Assembly: GCF_030124145.1 (NCBI RefSeq)
Contig: NZ_JASKMS010000004.1
Span: forward strand, 124,001 to 188,000
DNA length: 64,000 bases
From: Streptomyces sp. 378
GTDB lineage: Bacteria > Actinomycetota > Actinomycetes > Streptomycetales > Streptomycetaceae
Direction of reading: 5' to 3'
Part shown: in pieces, positions 49,309 through 57,592 of the stretch
How the letters are laid out: every line of letters begins with the position of its first letter
How positions within the stretch are numbered: the stretch's first letter is position 1
Translations under genes and position numbers: made by a program
The notes under the pieces: model-generated
Told to the model about the DNA's origin: nothing
Database searches by the model: none
Seen by the model: the letters and a program-made list of their open reading frames with translations, nothing else

Positions 49309-49704
49309 GTGACGACTCAAGCGGAGACCAGGCCGTCGGCGGCTGCCAAGCCGCGGCGGTGGGCGGCGGACACGGTGGCGACGATGCGCGGGGGAGCACG
49401 GCTGCGCCTCGACTACTCGGAGCAGAGCCTGTGGAGCATCGACCGGATGATCGAGGGGATACGGCGGGAAGGAGCGCCCGACGCCGCCGTCCAGGAGGTG
49501 CTGCGCGGCTTCGGGGCCTACGCCGGTGAGGTGATGGCGCGTCAGACGGGCGCCGAGTGGTGGGCGACCGGCGGAGACCACTGGATCCGCACCCCCGACG
49601 GGCGCCTGTGGGACCCCATCGAGGAGGCCCGCCGCTGCTACGCGGGCCATGGATCGCTCCGGCTGCTGTGCCGGGACGCGGGGAGGGCCGCGCCCCGGCG
49701 TTAG
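49309..49704 (+). CDS. hypothetical protein, short Trp-rich fold
   Basis: About 131 residues from the GTG at 49309; starts at 49222 (TTG) and 49384 (ATG) are possible, none with a convincing ribosome binding site. The conserved-looking part runs from LDYSEQSLWSIDRMIEGI to ARRCYAGHGSLRLLCRDAG, with GAYAGEVMARQTGAEWW and WIRTPDGRLWDPIEEA in the middle. This pattern recalls DUF3806-type proteins of unknown role. Convergent with the amidase gene, 2 bp between stops. Confidence 0.6.
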   Translation: MTTQAETRPSAAAKPRRWAADTVATMRGGARLRLDYSEQSLWSIDRMIEGIRREGAPDAAVQEVLRGFGAYAGEVMARQTGAEWWATGGDHWIRTPDGRLWDPIEEARRCYAGHGSLRLLCRDAGRAAPRR

Positions 49705-49706
49705 CG

Positions 49707-50921
<1,215 letters not shown>

Positions 50922-51137
50922 ACGGCACTCGCCTTTCGTGGGCGGTTGCATCGCGAGCAGAGCTCCCCGGTGGCGAACTCGGCCGAAACCTCCGCGGCGC
51001 CGGGCTCCCGAGGACGGCGGGCCGGGTTGACCCGAACGGTCGTGGGCCCCCCGCATCCGGCGCGCTGTGACACTTCCGCGCGGACCGGCGCTGATCACCG
51101 TGGGAGGGCGCGCACTCGGCACGGACGAGGACGGTAC

Positions 51138-51755
51138 TTGGGTCAGGGAGCGGAACCCCGGCGCGGGCAGGCGTACGACGGGGAACTGGGCGCGGCCGTC
51201 GCGCGGGCCCAGCAGGGTGACGAGGCGGCCTTCGCGGTCGCCTACCGGTTCGTGCAGCCCGGTCTGCTCGGCTATCTGCGCGGTCTGGTCGGGGACGACG
51301 CGGAGGACGTGGCGTCCGACGCCTGGCTGGAGATCGCCCGGGACCTCGGCCGGTTCCGGGGCGACGGGGCCGGCTTCCGGGGCTGGACGGCGACCATCGC
51401 CCGGCACCGGGCGCTGGACCACCTGCGCCGGCAGCGGGTACGGCCCCGGTCGTCCGCGCTGGAGCAGGACGTCCTGGAACTGCCCGGGCCGCAGAGCACG
51501 CACGACCAGGCGCTGGAGGCCCTGTCCACCGAGCGCGCCCTGGAGCTGGTCCGTGGGCTGCCGCGCGACCAGGCCGAGGCCGTGCTGCTGCGTGTCGTGG
51601 TCGGCCTCGACGGCCCGGCCGCCGCGCGGGTCCTGGGCAAGCGGCCGGGCGCGGTCCGTACGGCCGCCCACCGGGGCCTGAAACGCCTCGCCGGGCAGCT
51701 GGGCGCGGAGAGTGTGACGGATGAAGCCCCCCGGACGCTGGGTGAGTCGACATGA
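51138..51755 (+). CDS. ECF-family RNA polymerase sigma factor, first module
   Basis: A 205-residue sigma factor. Region 2: FAVAYRFVQPGLLGYLRGLV, then DDAEDVASDAWLEIARDLGRF and FRGWTATIARHRALDHLRR. Region 4: LPRDQAEAVLLRVVVGLDGP, AAARVLGKRPGAVRTAAHRG. A TTG at 51138 with GAGG 7 nt upstream is the best start; no ATG or GTG fits. Its paralogue lies 2 kb downstream with the same partner layout. Stop overlaps the next small ORF (ATGA). Confidence 0.88.
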   Translation: MGQGAEPRRGQAYDGELGAAVARAQQGDEAAFAVAYRFVQPGLLGYLRGLVGDDAEDVASDAWLEIARDLGRFRGDGAGFRGWTATIARHRALDHLRRQRVRPRSSALEQDVLELPGPQSTHDQALEALSTERALELVRGLPRDQAEAVLLRVVVGLDGPAAARVLGKRPGAVRTAAHRGLKRLAGQLGAESVTDEAPRTLGEST

Positions 51756-51919
51756 GCGGAACCGGCGGTTTCGCTCACGGTCCGGGCGGGTCGCGCGGAC
51801 TTGGCGCCCTGAACAGGGCCGACCGGCGGGACGTACTGGTGGGACCCGGCGGCCCGGGCGGCCCCACCGGGGCGGACGGATCGATCGAATCGAGCAGGGA
51901 CGGATACGGACATGGGTGA
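51752..51919 (+). CDS. small 55-residue ORF between sigma factor and its membrane partner
   Basis: ATG overlaps the sigma stop (ATGA) and the TGA overlaps the next gene's start region (ATG at 51912), so three frames are chained without gaps. Third codon positions are G/C-rich. The peptide contains LNRADRRDVLVGPGGP, which loosely resembles the LDRETAERLLSGEPPE at the N-terminus of the partner protein of the second module. It may be a detached N-terminal piece or an independent small protein. Confidence 0.5.
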   Translation: MSGTGGFAHGPGGSRGLGALNRADRRDVLVGPGGPGGPTGADGSIESSRDGYGHG

Positions 51920-52700
51920 ACGGCAGAGCGGCGGCGGGCTGTCCGGCCGTGGTTCCCGTCACGCCCTCCTGGACTCCGACGTCGAGGCGCTGCTCATCGC
52001 CTCCCTCGTCAGGGACGGTGTCGACGCCGAGGCCGAGCAGCGGGCCGTGGCCGCCTTCCGGGCCGCCCGGGACGCCGAGGGCCTGCGCACCCGCGGCCAC
52101 CGCCGGGACGACTGGCGGGCCGGGGAGCGGCGGCACCTGGGCCGGTCCCTGAAGACCACGCTCTCCGTCCTGGTCGCCAGTCTCACGCTGGGCGGTGTCG
52201 CCGTGGCGGCGATCGGCGTGGCGGGGTCGCCGGAGGAGGGCACCACGGACGCCCCCGACCGCAAGCCCGCCCCGAGCAGCGCCCCGCACGACCCGGCCGG
52301 GAAGCCTCCCCCCGGCGGTCACAGCCCCGGCACCGGCAGCGGCTCGGCCCCGGCCCACCCCGGCCGGCCGTCCCCCGCGCAGGACACCGAGGCCCACTGC
52401 CGCGCCTATGAGCGGGCCGGGGGGCGCGGCGAGGCCATGGAAGCGACGGCCTGGCAGCGTCTGGCGACCGCCGCGGGCGGTGAGAGGAACGTCACGGCGT
52501 ACTGCGCCGGACAACTGGCCGAGCCCAAGAGCGGGAGCGGTGGCTCCGGGAACGGCGACCCCGGCCGCGGCGGCTCTTCCACCGCGGACAAGGGCGGGGC
52601 GAACCGGCCGGACAACGCCGGGAGCGGTGAGCCGGGCAACGGAACGGGCAAGAACCGGAGCGACTCCGAGCGCTCCCAGCCCAAGGGCCGTCACCGGTAG
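51912..52700 (+). CDS. single-pass membrane protein, putative anti-sigma-like partner (first module)
   Basis: A 262-residue protein. Cytoplasmic part about 1-80 (ALLIASLVRDGVDAEAEQRA, AVAAFRAARDAEGL), one helix (TLSVLVASLTLGGVAVAAIG), then a long Pro/Gly/Ser-rich outer part with two cysteines (AHCRAYERAGG, TAYCAGQLAEP) and a basic end. The layout equals that of the second-module protein, and AVAAFR...AR and LGGVAVA match it. No zinc anti-sigma HxxxCxxC motif is present. Role as sigma-factor control protein is inferred from position only. Confidence 0.7.
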   Translation: MGERQSGGGLSGRGSRHALLDSDVEALLIASLVRDGVDAEAEQRAVAAFRAARDAEGLRTRGHRRDDWRAGERRHLGRSLKTTLSVLVASLTLGGVAVAAIGVAGSPEEGTTDAPDRKPAPSSAPHDPAGKPPPGGHSPGTGSGSAPAHPGRPSPAQDTEAHCRAYERAGGRGEAMEATAWQRLATAAGGERNVTAYCAGQLAEPKSGSGGSGNGDPGRGGSSTADKGGANRPDNAGSGEPGNGTGKNRSDSERSQPKGRHR

Positions 52701-53084
52701 GAGATTTCCGCGAGCGCCGGTCGGCACCGCTCAGCGGTGCTGCGGACCCGGCGGTACCCGCCATGGCAACGGCCGGAGCCGCCACCCCCCACAGGAGAGG
52801 CCCCGGCCGTCGCGCGGCACGGGCCGCGCGGCGGCCCGTATCCCCTACAGCGCGCGGGGTGCGTTTTCTGTCACACCCCGCCGCGTCACGGCTTAGTTGC
52901 ATCCCGGGCGGACATGGACGGGGAGTGGTTTCAGGTCGTAACGTGCCATTCGCGCCAACGGCGAAGGCGGCAAGACCACCGCAGCCACCTGCGGTCTTGT
53001 AACCGCAACCACCTATTGGGCAACCACGACGGCGAGAACCCGGTCCGCGCGAGCGGCGCCGGTCGAGGCGCAGAAGGGCGCGCG
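52701..53084. other. 384-bp gap with several hairpins, no gene
   Basis: Dyads seen: GCACCGC-TCA-GCGGTGC (52724-52740), GGCGG-TAC-CCGCC (about 52750), ACGGGCCG/CGGCCCGT (52819-52839) and an imperfect AAGACC...GGTCTT stem (52971-52998). The first may end transcription of the first module; the region before 53085 must hold the promoter of the second sigma gene. An in-frame ATG at 52914 exists, but the peptide it would add is Arg/His-rich and lacks coding character. Confidence 0.5.
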
Positions 53085-53759
53085 GTGCTGGGGGACGACG
53101 CGGAGCTGACCGCAGCGGTGCGCGCGGCACAGGACGGAGAGGAAGACGCGTTCCGGACTGTGTACCGCACCGTGCATCCGCGGCTGCTCGGGTACGTACG
53201 GACGTTGGTCGGCGACCCTGACGCCGAGGACGTGACGTCCGAGGCGTGGCTGCAGATAGCCCGCGATCTGGAGCGGTTCACCGGCGACGCGGACCGGTTC
53301 CGCGGCTGGGCCGCCCGGATCGCCCGCAACCGCGCGCTGGACCACATACGCATGCGCGGGCGAAGGCCCGCGATCGGCGGGGACGAGACCGAACTGACCG
53401 GCCGGCCGGCCGAGTCCGACACCGCCGGCGAGGCCATCGAGGCGCTCGCCACCGACGGCGCGTTCTCCCTGATCTCCCGACTGCCCCAGGACCAGGCCGA
53501 GGCGGTCGTGCTGCGCGTGGTGGTGGGGCTCGACGCGAAGACCGCCGCCGAGACGCTCGGCAAGCGCCCGGGCGCGGTCCGTACGGCGGCGCACCGGGGC
53601 CTGAAGCGGCTCGCCGAACTGCTCGGCGACGATCCGCAGGCGGATCCGGAATCGGCCGGGGTGCTCGATGCCCTGCCGCCCCAGAGAGAACCGCGCGGCG
53701 GTGCCGTGACGTCCGCAGGTGTGACGCGTAGCGTGACGCGGACGCAGAAGGATGTGTGA
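53085..53759 (+). CDS. ECF-family RNA polymerase sigma factor, second module
   Basis: A 224-residue sigma factor. Region 2: TVYRTVHPRLLGYVRTLVGD, AEDVTSEAWLQIARDLERF, FRGWAARIARNRALDHIRMR; region 4: LPQDQAEAVVLRVVVGLDAK, ETLGKRPGAVRTAAHRGLKR. It is clearly a paralogue of the sigma at 51138. GTG at 53085 with GAAGG 8 nt upstream. A 30-residue tail after region 4 (PESAGVLDALPPQREPRGG) is not in the paralogue. Stop overlaps the partner start. Confidence 0.9.
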   Translation: MLGDDAELTAAVRAAQDGEEDAFRTVYRTVHPRLLGYVRTLVGDPDAEDVTSEAWLQIARDLERFTGDADRFRGWAARIARNRALDHIRMRGRRPAIGGDETELTGRPAESDTAGEAIEALATDGAFSLISRLPQDQAEAVVLRVVVGLDAKTAAETLGKRPGAVRTAAHRGLKRLAELLGDDPQADPESAGVLDALPPQREPRGGAVTSAGVTRSVTRTQKDV

Positions 53760-54856
53760 TGGCCGACGAGCAGTACAGGTGGCTGGACCGCGAAACGGCG
53801 GAGCGTTTGCTGAGCGGAGAGCCACCGGAAGCTGTCGACGGCGCCCACCGCGGCGAGGCCGAACGGCTCGCCAGGACACTCGGCGCGCTGTCCGTGCCAC
53901 ACCCGCCGACCAGCGAGGAACTCCCCGGTGAGGCAGCCGCGGTAGCCGCTTTCCGCAAGGCCCGCGCCGACGCCGTGACCGCCTCCACCGCCACTCGTGA
54001 ACAGGCCCCCGCCAGGACCGCCGACGCCGGGCTGGTCCGGATCGGAACCGCGCGCGTCGGCGGTCCGGGTGGCGTCCGGCGCTCCCGCGGGGTCCGTCCG
54101 GCCGGCCTGGCGCTGGCCGCCTCACTGGCCGTCGGCACGGTCGGCGGAGTCGCCGTCGTGGCCGGAACCGGAGTCCTGGGAGCACCGTTCGGCGGCGACG
54201 AGACCGACCCCGGTGCCTCCGTCTCGGCCGCCACCACTCCTCCCGAGCGCCCCCTGGTCTCACCCTCGCCGACCGACTCCGGGCAGGGCGAGGCGGCTCC
54301 CGGCGACGATGCCCCGAACAGCGCCGCGACGGGCGGCGCCGGTGACCCCGGGCGGAACGGGACCCGCGAGGACACCACCGGCAAAGGCGGCGCCGACGCC
54401 CGGGAGGACCGCCCCGACAGCCGCGAGGCGATCGCCCAGGCCTGCCGCGACCTGCGCGACGGCAAGCGCCTGGACGACGACCGCAGGCGCGCCCTGCGGG
54501 ACGCGGCGGGCGGCACGCGCGTGTGGAAGTACTGCAAGGGCGTCCTGTTCATGGCCGATCCCCGCTCCGGCGAGCCGGACGAGAAGGGCACGGGGCAGGG
54601 GCAGAGGCAGGGGAAGGGCCACGGCAAGGGCCGGGACGGGGAGCGGGACCGCGGCCAGGACCGCGAGGCGGACAAGGCCGAGCGGAAGGCCGAGCGCAAG
54701 GCCGAGCGGAAAGCCGAGCGGAAGGCCGACCGGCAGGCCGGTCGACAGGACGGGGCGAAGAGGACCGACGCCGGCCACAGCCGCACCGGGCACTCCCTCG
54801 CACCCCTGCGACCTGCGGTTTCGCACGCTGCGGAAAACTTCTGGCCGAAGGTGTGA
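53759..54856 (+). CDS. single-pass membrane protein, putative anti-sigma-like partner (second module)
   Basis: A 365-residue protein beginning MADEQYRWLDRETAERLLSG, with a helical cytoplasmic part (LPGEAAAVAAFRKARADAV), one membrane helix (AGLALAASLAVGTVGGVAVV) and a long hydrophilic outer part with two cysteines (AQACRDLRDG, WKYCKGVLF). The C-terminal third is highly charged, with a KAER repeat. ATG overlaps the sigma stop. No zinc anti-sigma motif. Same layout as the first-module partner. Confidence 0.72.
   Translation: MADEQYRWLDRETAERLLSGEPPEAVDGAHRGEAERLARTLGALSVPHPPTSEELPGEAAAVAAFRKARADAVTASTATREQAPARTADAGLVRIGTARVGGPGGVRRSRGVRPAGLALAASLAVGTVGGVAVVAGTGVLGAPFGGDETDPGASVSAATTPPERPLVSPSPTDSGQGEAAPGDDAPNSAATGGAGDPGRNGTREDTTGKGGADAREDRPDSREAIAQACRDLRDGKRLDDDRRRALRDAAGGTRVWKYCKGVLFMADPRSGEPDEKGTGQGQRQGKGHGKGRDGERDRGQDREADKAERKAERKAERKAERKADRQAGRQDGAKRTDAGHSRTGHSLAPLRPAVSHAAENFWPKV
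54676..54745 (+). repeat. 12-bp tandem repeat encoding KAER units
   Basis: Five near-identical 12-bp units (AAGGCCGAGCGG type) encode KAERKAERKAER near the C-terminus of the membrane partner. Confidence 0.75.
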
Positions 54857-55014
54857 CGTTTTCGGCCGCCCCGGCGCAGTAATGAGTGAGCCGACTGGTC
54901 ATCGGCCGTCGCACAGAGCCGGGGTTCCCCCCGTACCTACGGCTCGTGCACCTGAGCGCGGGCGGGACACGTTCCCCCGGTCCCGCCCGCGCCCCTGACT
55001 CCCCTCTTCCGCCG

Positions 55015-55869
55015 TCACCAGGACACGACGACTCTGTCGCCGTCGCGGACCCGCGCGAACAGCTCGGCGATCGCCGCCTCGTCCCGTACGTTGACGCAGC
55101 CGTGCGAGGCGCCCGCGTAGCCCCGGGCGGCGAAGTCCGCCGAGAAGTGCACGGCCTGGCCGCCGCTGAAGAACATCGCGTAGGGCATGGGCGAGTCGTA
55201 GAGCGTCGAGACGTGGTCGCGGGACTTCCAGTAGACGGAGAAGACGCCCTCCCGGGTCGGCGTGTACTGCGCGCCGAAGCGGACCGCCATCGTCGACACC
55301 GTTCGCCCGTCGACCATCCAGCGCAACGTCCGGCTGGTCTTGTCGATGCACAGCACCCGGCCCGTTCGGCAGCGCGGGTCCGGCGGGTCGGCCGGCTGGC
55401 CGCCCATCAGATACAGATCCCAGCGGCCCGGCTCCCGCGTCATGCGCAGCAGCCGCCGCCAGGTGACGGCGTCGGCCTTCCCGGTGCGCGGCAGCCCGCG
55501 CTTGCCCTGGAAGCCGCTGACCGCCCGCTCCGTCGGCTCGTCGTACGTCCCGGTCGGCCCCTCGAACAGCCAGGCGACCTGCCGCAGCCTGGCCTGGAGT
55601 TCCCGGACGTCCCGGCCGGTGTCACCGCGGGACCACAGCACGCGGGGCGGGGCCGGGGCGGCACCGGGCTTGTCGTCGCCGGACGGTGGCGCGGCGCTCG
55701 GCCCGCCGCCGTCACGGTCGCCACCGGCCGCCGTGCGGCCCGGGGACGGGGTGCCGGGCAGCTCGATGTGCACCGGCGAGCGGCCCTTGTCCTCGCCGTC
55801 GGGGGCCTGCACCGTGCAGCCGGTCAGCACGGCCGCCACGGCGAGTCCCGCTGCGCACGCTCTCTCCAT
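55015..55869 (-). CDS. L,D-transpeptidase lipoprotein with peptidoglycan-binding domain
   Basis: A 284-residue lipoprotein (signal AGLAVAAVLTGC, lipobox LTGC). A PG_binding_1 domain (about 95-150; RGDTGRDVRELQARLRQVAW, VSGFQGKRGL) precedes the YkuD catalytic domain (about 170-284) with the His and catalytic Cys in HFSADFAARGYAGASHGCVN. It makes 3-3 cross-links or links other proteins to peptidoglycan, a route resistant to most penicillins. The ATG at 55869 follows AGGACGG; a GTG at 55905 is possible. Confidence 0.92.
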   Translation of the reverse strand: MERACAAGLAVAAVLTGCTVQAPDGEDKGRSPVHIELPGTPSPGRTAAGGDRDGGGPSAAPPSGDDKPGAAPAPPRVLWSRGDTGRDVRELQARLRQVAWLFEGPTGTYDEPTERAVSGFQGKRGLPRTGKADAVTWRRLLRMTREPGRWDLYLMGGQPADPPDPRCRTGRVLCIDKTSRTLRWMVDGRTVSTMAVRFGAQYTPTREGVFSVYWKSRDHVSTLYDSPMPYAMFFSGGQAVHFSADFAARGYAGASHGCVNVRDEAAIAELFARVRDGDRVVVSW

Positions 55870-56011
55870 GCCCGTCCTACGCACACGGCCCCCCACTCGT
55901 CTCACCGGTCCGCCCGGTTGTCACCTCCAGATGCTTCCCCGGGCGTGACCCGCCGCGAACCAGGGGGCATCGTGGTGAGCGAGGTCACTGCTCTGCGGGA
56001 GGCAACCCACC

Positions 56012-57592
<1,581 letters not shown>

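Follow-up and report, generated by a model that had tools for sequence, protein, structure and literature searches.

A short open reading frame between an ECF sigma factor gene and its membrane partner gene in Streptomyces: a candidate translational relay that harbours a promoter-like sequence

Two sigma factor genes of the extracytoplasmic function (ECF) type lie side by side in Streptomyces sp. 378, each followed by a gene for a membrane protein, and in one of the two modules a small open reading frame (ORF) is placed between sigma gene and partner gene. Does this ORF encode a peptide with a function of its own, or does it serve the expression of the gene behind it? We analysed a stretch of 64,000 nucleotides (nt) of contig NZ_JASKMS010000004.1 (positions 124,001 to 188,000, forward strand), hereafter called the window, to which all coordinates refer unless a locus or contig is named. 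Module 1 consists of the sigma gene S1 (51138-51755, plus strand), the small ORF, termed bridge here (51752-51919, plus strand), and P1 (51912-52700, plus strand), which encodes a membrane protein and presumed anti-sigma factor. Module 2 consists of S2 (53085-53759, plus strand) and the gene of its membrane partner P2 (53759-54856, plus strand; alternative start GTG 53756).

An earlier reading of the window's letters alone, the sequence-only reading, had described two paralogous sigma genes side by side, each overlapping the gene of a single-pass membrane protein, and a small ORF chained between S1 and P1. The paralogy was borne out: both proteins are of the ECF type by Pfam and are mutually the closest paralogues in the genome (60% identity over 184 amino acids). 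The small ORF is also present, with 55 codons and overlaps at both ends, -4 nt (ATGA) with the S1 stop and -8 nt with the P1 start, the latter at ATGGGTGA (51912-51919, plus strand), where the P1 start codon overlaps the bridge stop. The overlap of sigma and partner genes held for module 2, in which S2 and P2 share TGATG (-1) or, if P2 begins at GTG 53756, GTGA (-4); in module 1, S1 overlaps the small ORF and this overlaps P1. We lean towards reading the bridge as a translational relay from S1 to the presumed anti-sigma factor P1 with a nested promoter-like element for P1, and sequence comparison indicates that the junction is better explained in this way than as a peptide gene.

The S1-P1 junction in related loci

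We compared the junction in 81 loci, comprising the window and 80 named records (the best 80 of more by S1 relatedness; 79 from Streptomyces, the remaining one named 'Actinobacteria bacterium OV320'). Five of the 81 loci were not assigned in a first classification and were later placed by inspection. Continuous translation from S1 to P1 was kept in 57 loci. A separate bridge ended in the 8-nt ATGNNTGA overlap at the P1 start in 35 of them, as in the window; in five it ran beyond the P1 start in another frame (overlap of about 160 nt in L138), and in two it ended just 5' of the P1 ATG. The ATGA or GTGA start lay in frame with P1 in 13 loci, the bridge forming the head of P1, and two loci (L124, L129) had lost the S1 stop, so that the bridge was the tail of S1 and S1 itself overlapped P1 by 8 nt. 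Start overlap, frame and the alternatives that keep continuity (relay ORF, P1 fusion and S1 fusion) are thus seen directly in the comparison.

The S1-P1 gaps of the 35 relay loci spanned 33-828 nt. Separate bridges were 8 to 279 codons long in the 81 loci, and the shortest bridge in a separate sample of the genus (partly the same strains, window included) had 4 codons (L025); the 8-nt overlap was found in 9 of 26 S1-type loci of that sample. Even the 279-codon bridge of L087 finishes with the 8-nt overlap at the P1 start. Of the eight S1 loci of that sample with 69-76% identity, six (L018, L022, L023, L024, L026, L028) have a P1 whose start codon is itself part of the ATGA overlap; a downstream shift of the P1 start may therefore have given rise to the bridge.

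An ATG or GTG overlapped the S1 TGA in 76 of the 81 loci (54 ATG, 22 GTG), and this overlap is kept by means of rare codons. The last S1 codon ended in A in 54 loci and in G in 25, compared with A in 5% of the 16,589 other S1 codons; ACA accounted for 25 of 39 threonine codons at the S1 end versus 7 of 661 elsewhere. Median pairing with the anti-Shine-Dalgarno sequence was -8.4 kcal/mol at the bridge start across all 81 loci, including five that lack a start codon at this point, compared with -4.4 kcal/mol for random places.

The frame was analysed by following length changes of the spacer on the S1 tree and comparing them with a random-frame expectation in 2000 simulations. Because a bridge length is missing for L124 and L129, both stand outside this analysis and the count of promoter boxes below. 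The 55 continuous loci showed 41 length changes with 11 frame changes, whereas 20.5 were expected, and 0 of 2000 simulations were as low. The control group of 24 loci without relay showed 21 length changes with 11 frame changes versus 10.8 expected (1328 of 2000 simulations). A run without three of the later-placed loci gave 11 versus 19.1 frame changes for the continuous loci and 10 versus 10.8 for the control.

The bridge peptides of the 81 loci revealed no shared sequence outside the promoter-like segment and a ..GHG* end. The sequence-only reading had made conservation of the small ORF one of its checks; the start and frame of the ORF are conserved, but its peptide is not. The peptide appears to be little constrained, and any role of the bridge would be that of a translation relay.

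A promoter-like element in the bridge

The bridge contains an ECF-promoter-like element on the plus strand (51810-51835), TGAAC (51810-51814) followed after 17 nt by CGTA (51832-51835), which translates as LNRADRRDV. TGAACAGGGCCGACCGGCGGGACGTA and adjacent bases form the DNA behind LNRADRRDVL, the segment that the sequence-only reading had likened to the P2 N-terminus LDRETAERLL. ECF promoters in general have the form AAC-N16/17-CGT. Alignments showed that both boxes and their spacing stand out within a variable, gapped region. Of the 79 bridges scored, 29 contained TGAAC-N17-CGTA and 8 the N16 form, 37 in all (Markov expectation 0.03 loci); other TGAAC/CGTA spacings from 8 to 27 were found in at most two loci each. 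The genome of Streptomyces sp. 378 contains TGAAC-N17-CGTA 44 times versus 11 times for the reversed pattern.

Conservation of a peptide, LNRAD..RDV, instead of a promoter would fit the single frame in which the boxes lie in all 24 loci that have them inside the ORF. This is improbable, as the boxes span the ORF stop in nine loci, follow it in two and occur without any ORF in two more, so that 13 of the 37 pairs are not wholly within an ORF, and one N16 variant lies on the start codon itself. Because the boxes keep their form across the stop, behind it and without an ORF, the DNA rather than the peptide is conserved, and we dropped the homology of LNRADRRDVL and LDRETAERLL. Conservation and spacing make TGAAC-N16/17-CGTA a putative private promoter of P1.

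Two further copies of the N17 pattern in the same genome were noted. One (L148 2076-2101; G000:C34:52059-52084) lies between an ECF sigma gene and the next gene, which by eye resemble shbA and guaB, and the other (G000:C17:37629-37654) 116 bases upstream of an S2-matching stretch that encodes a different ECF sigma factor (C17:37039-37512, minus strand).

Relay, alternatives and precedents

In each module the membrane-anchored partner most likely keeps its sigma factor inactive. Ribosomes finishing S1 would restart at the overlapping ATG, translate a short ORF without fixed sequence, stop within ATGGGTGA and restart on P1. Such a relay would couple P1 to S1 synthesis, yielding some P1 per S1, and in species that carry the promoter-like element this would supply further P1 independently of S1; given a P1 transcript of its own, the inhibitor could exceed the sigma factor. 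Gaps of 33-828 nt would need a relay because in reporters of E. coli and Haloferax little coupling was left once the gap reached about 20 nt, according to the accessible part of a study that also lists the -8 ATGNNTGA overlap as third commonest (PMC10666635). Tentatively, and with less than even confidence, we extend this to a broader proposal. An ORF with an irrelevant peptide would be selected for its translation while carrying the promoter of the inhibitor; the coupled and uncoupled channels together would set the ratio of sigma factor to inhibitor; the segment would have been swapped between ORF, sigma tail and inhibitor head, or the relay lost; and the inhibitors would form an uncatalogued family of membrane anti-sigma factors with a two-cysteine outer sensor domain.

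Several observations weigh against the relay or suit another account, in which the small ORF is a by-product: the gap is a spacer and promoter region, P1 uses its own ribosome-binding site (RBS), and the ORF stays open because stops are scarce in GC-rich DNA. The peptide is not conserved, and 24 of the 81 loci have no relay, presumably still making P1; in 21 of these the ORF ends early and three have no bridge start because the S1 stop became TAG. Median anti-Shine-Dalgarno pairing at the P1 start was -7.4 kcal/mol (76 loci), so that independent initiation of P1 is possible, and 37 of 79 loci carry the promoter-like element within the gap. The GGT that makes the overlapping TGA is kept in 21 of 21 early-ending loci and in 10 of the 12 fused loci of the first classification; since it persists where no relay runs, the end overlap alone is no proof of use. 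Two of 205 other S1 codon places, both near the S1 start, showed a higher share of A than the last codon, and sister pairs with both ORFs open showed five length changes by a multiple of three versus four others, a weak signal from few changes (three versus six where one or both end early). The N16/17 boxes are missing from 42 of 79 loci, including all 12 fused loci of the first classification, the loci are related to each other so that their counts are not independent, and anti-sigma activity of P1 and P2 is something we infer from gene order and coupling. A by-product would, however, leave two features without explanation: the frame is kept across length changes in continuous loci and not in the control group, and the start overlap is kept by means of rare codons. 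We regard it as unlikely.

Two other accounts give the bridge a product. In the first, the bridge encodes a micropeptide that would act as a third component and modulate sigma factor or partner; two of four groups of relatives (six sequences each) show a mild excess of third-position differences that would agree with this. No such excess was seen in the third group (four sequences), the fourth was a single pair with 14 changed codons, and lengths from 8 to 279 codons (4 in L025), with nothing shared beyond the promoter segment and the ..GHG* end, make this account very improbable. We give equally little credence to the bridge as a detached P1 head that programmed frameshifting would join to P1 to yield an N-terminally extended partner. 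The in-frame fusions of 13 loci would agree with it, but five loci have the opposite frame, the heads share no sequence by eye and an RBS-like stretch precedes the P1 start.

Among known systems, sigR-rsrA is the closest precedent for the proposed relay with its nested promoter-like element. The available text on it (PMC5472188) describes, as in module 1, an ATGA overlap of the sigma stop with the next start, and reports that rsrA combines incomplete ATGA coupling with a dedicated conserved promoter and RBS, so that the anti-sigma factor is made in excess. Unlike P1, rsrA starts directly in the overlap and has its promoter inside sigR (same source); in module 1 a separate ORF lies between, the boxes are within this ORF, and P1 is membrane-bound and has no zinc motif. 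A review, in its accessible part, considers that a short ORF may serve solely to deliver ribosomes (PMC12548453), and in such ORFs and in MIRU-type coupling, as proposed for the bridge, the short ORF only brings the ribosome downstream. The delivering ORFs described there precede one gene or accompany an inserted repeat, whereas the bridge connects with a gene on either side, and fusions that preserve this connection take its place in relatives. In the BldN-RsbN pair, with a class III anti-sigma factor, RsbN is anchored in the membrane (PMC8103513, PMC7406223, as far as accessible), like P1 and P2; S1 and S2 score with the BldN-family sigma model, though below its cut-off, and a profile comparison of the RsbN N-terminus with those of P1 and P2 was not significant. 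No paper on the S1-P1 junction was found by title in a search that left subscription papers mostly outside, so that such a paper may well exist.

The ratio of sigma to anti-sigma factor sets the threshold of a stress switch. The 81 loci represent natural relay, fused, broken and promoter-bearing versions of a single junction, and these variants make the contributions of coupling and of a private promoter directly measurable. For surveys of small ORFs the junction carries two cautions: the place and frame of an ORF can be conserved though its peptide is unimportant, and a seemingly conserved peptide segment can be a promoter.

Sigma factors, membrane partners and surroundings

S1 and S2 both matched Pfam Sigma70_r2 and r4_2 above cut-off, with no region 3 row at E<=1, and both were above cut-off for the NCBIfam sigma70-ECF superfamily model; the top-scoring NCBIfam rows, including ShbA- and BldN-type models, were below cut-off. 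S2 is the only other match to S1 in the genome at E<=1e-30, and after S1 the next match to S2 has 32% identity. The region 4.2 helix GKRPGAVRTAA(H/Y)RGL(K/R)RL was found in 73 of 81 S1 and 50 of 64 S2 proteins, the remainder lying outside the search pattern. S1 starts with TTG at the same place in 81 of 81 loci and S2 with GTG at the same place in 58 of 64. We dropped the idea that TTG is a weak start, since the available text on sigR describes a greater yield of SigR from TTG than from ATG or GTG (PMC5472188).

Upstream of S1 lies the element TGTGACAC (51066-51073, plus strand), presumed regulatory or promoter DNA; in 71 of 81 loci the 300 nt before S1 contain TGTGACA[CT], which was also seen in an 18-locus alignment. 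The block CGTAACGTGCC (52937-52947, plus strand) recurs in the 300 nt before S2 in 63 of 64 loci and was seen in an 18-locus alignment, in which inspection by eye revealed no consistent partner box at promoter spacing. A search of 49500-56500 against Rfam at E<=0.1 gave no match. The S2 leader (53002-53078) has a copy of 78 base pairs and 85% identity elsewhere in the genome (L002 1501-1578; G000:C56), between the presumed end of panB (by eye) and an ABC transporter gene, and is thus a repeated leader element.

P1 proteins were obtained from 72 of the 81 loci and P2 proteins from 57, of which 40 and 38 were aligned. The two families are homologous (hhalign E 2.6e-13). The sequence-only reading was right in calling the partners single-pass proteins without a zinc anti-sigma motif: each has one clear hydrophobic stretch, in P1 at residues 86-104 (52167-52223, plus strand; 19-residue hydropathy peak 2.27, next 1.01) and in P2 at residues 117-135 counted from ATG 53759 (54107-54163, plus strand; peak 2.13, next 0.48), and HxxxCxxC was found in 0 of 72 P1 and 0 of 57 P2 proteins. 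AlphaFold2 models were most confident in the outer domains and moderately confident in the N-terminal parts. The P1 outer domain (residues 155-203; 52374-52520, plus strand) is predicted to form three helices with Cys163 and Cys198 (blocks 151-200, predicted local distance difference test (pLDDT) 79-96), and the P2 outer domain (residues 221-266; 54419-54556, plus strand) contains Cys229 and Cys259 (blocks 221-270, pLDDT 80-95). Both cysteines were invariant across the 40 aligned P1 sequences, with C-x34-C in 62 and C-x35-C in 2 of 72 proteins; in the 38 aligned P2 sequences Cys229 was invariant and Cys259 present in at least 90%. The P2 of S. viridochromogenes DSM 40736 (L070 7566-8015) has 150 codons versus 321-436 in the other 56 loci, which points to a frameshift, either a genuine one or an error of assembly.

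No Pfam family was above cut-off in P1 or P2 of the window, and no anti-sigma family was among the Pfam rows of members of either family. A PDB sequence search at E<=10 gave five rows for the P2 profile and one for P1, none of them a sigma or anti-sigma factor. Searches with both whole-protein models yielded no Foldseek match at E<=0.001 and no VIA-align row at Z>=5, absences that say nothing either way. The sole anti-sigma row of the structural comparison, RseA (1or7_C; Z 2.4, root mean square deviation 8.0, 60 aligned), falls on the outer domain.

RsbN and RsdA were considered as partner families, as their N-terminal pattern is alike by eye; the profile statistics did not support either. A profile of the RsbN N-terminus (26 of 30 fetched loci) gave hhalign P values of 0.11 with P2 and 0.059 with P1, and column shuffles equalled the score in 9 and 3 of 60 cases, respectively. 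The Pfam rows obtained for P1 and P2 members did not include RsdA (PF16751, RsdA_SigD_bd), which also had no match in the genome of Streptomyces sp. 378; with an RsdA profile (4 of 5 fetched stretches), shuffles equalled the scores against the partners in 4 and 7 of 60 cases. Gene order, overlaps, the missing zinc motif and Pfam family, and conservation in many Streptomyces suggest that the module is most likely a non-classical sigma/partner pair.

Profile searches at E<=0.001 over 61 genomes of the genus detected P2 in 51 and P1 in 25. S1-type genes (at least 69% identity) occurred at 30 places in 26 of the 61 genomes, four of which had two, and of 69 full-length loci, counting the window, 57 had module 2 downstream of S1. 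By these counts and placements module 2 is the more widespread of the two and module 1 its accessory relative, which often, not always, lies beside it. In other genera of the order, P2 profile matches were weak and found in 2 of 15 genomes.

SCO4864-SCO4867 of S. coelicolor may be the counterpart of the two modules. The available text of a pH-shock array study calls SCO4864 and SCO4866 ECF sigma genes and has SCO4864 in the list of downregulated genes and SCO4866 in the other list (PMC2631018), and the accessible part of another study reports SCO4866 as more than 3-fold up in one germination interval (PMC4367926). SCO4865 and SCO4867 were not found mentioned in the literature searched, which left subscription papers mostly outside.

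The two modules are flanked by an Amidase_2 gene divergent from S1 (49710-50921, minus strand) and a YkuD L,D-transpeptidase gene facing P2 (55018-55905, minus strand). Homologues lay within the flank in 39 (amidase) and 55 (transpeptidase) of the 69 full-length loci. A role of the modules at the cell envelope would fit because the families of both neighbours act on peptidoglycan. The Amidase_2 protein ends in a C-terminal acidic DEDEDE repeat.

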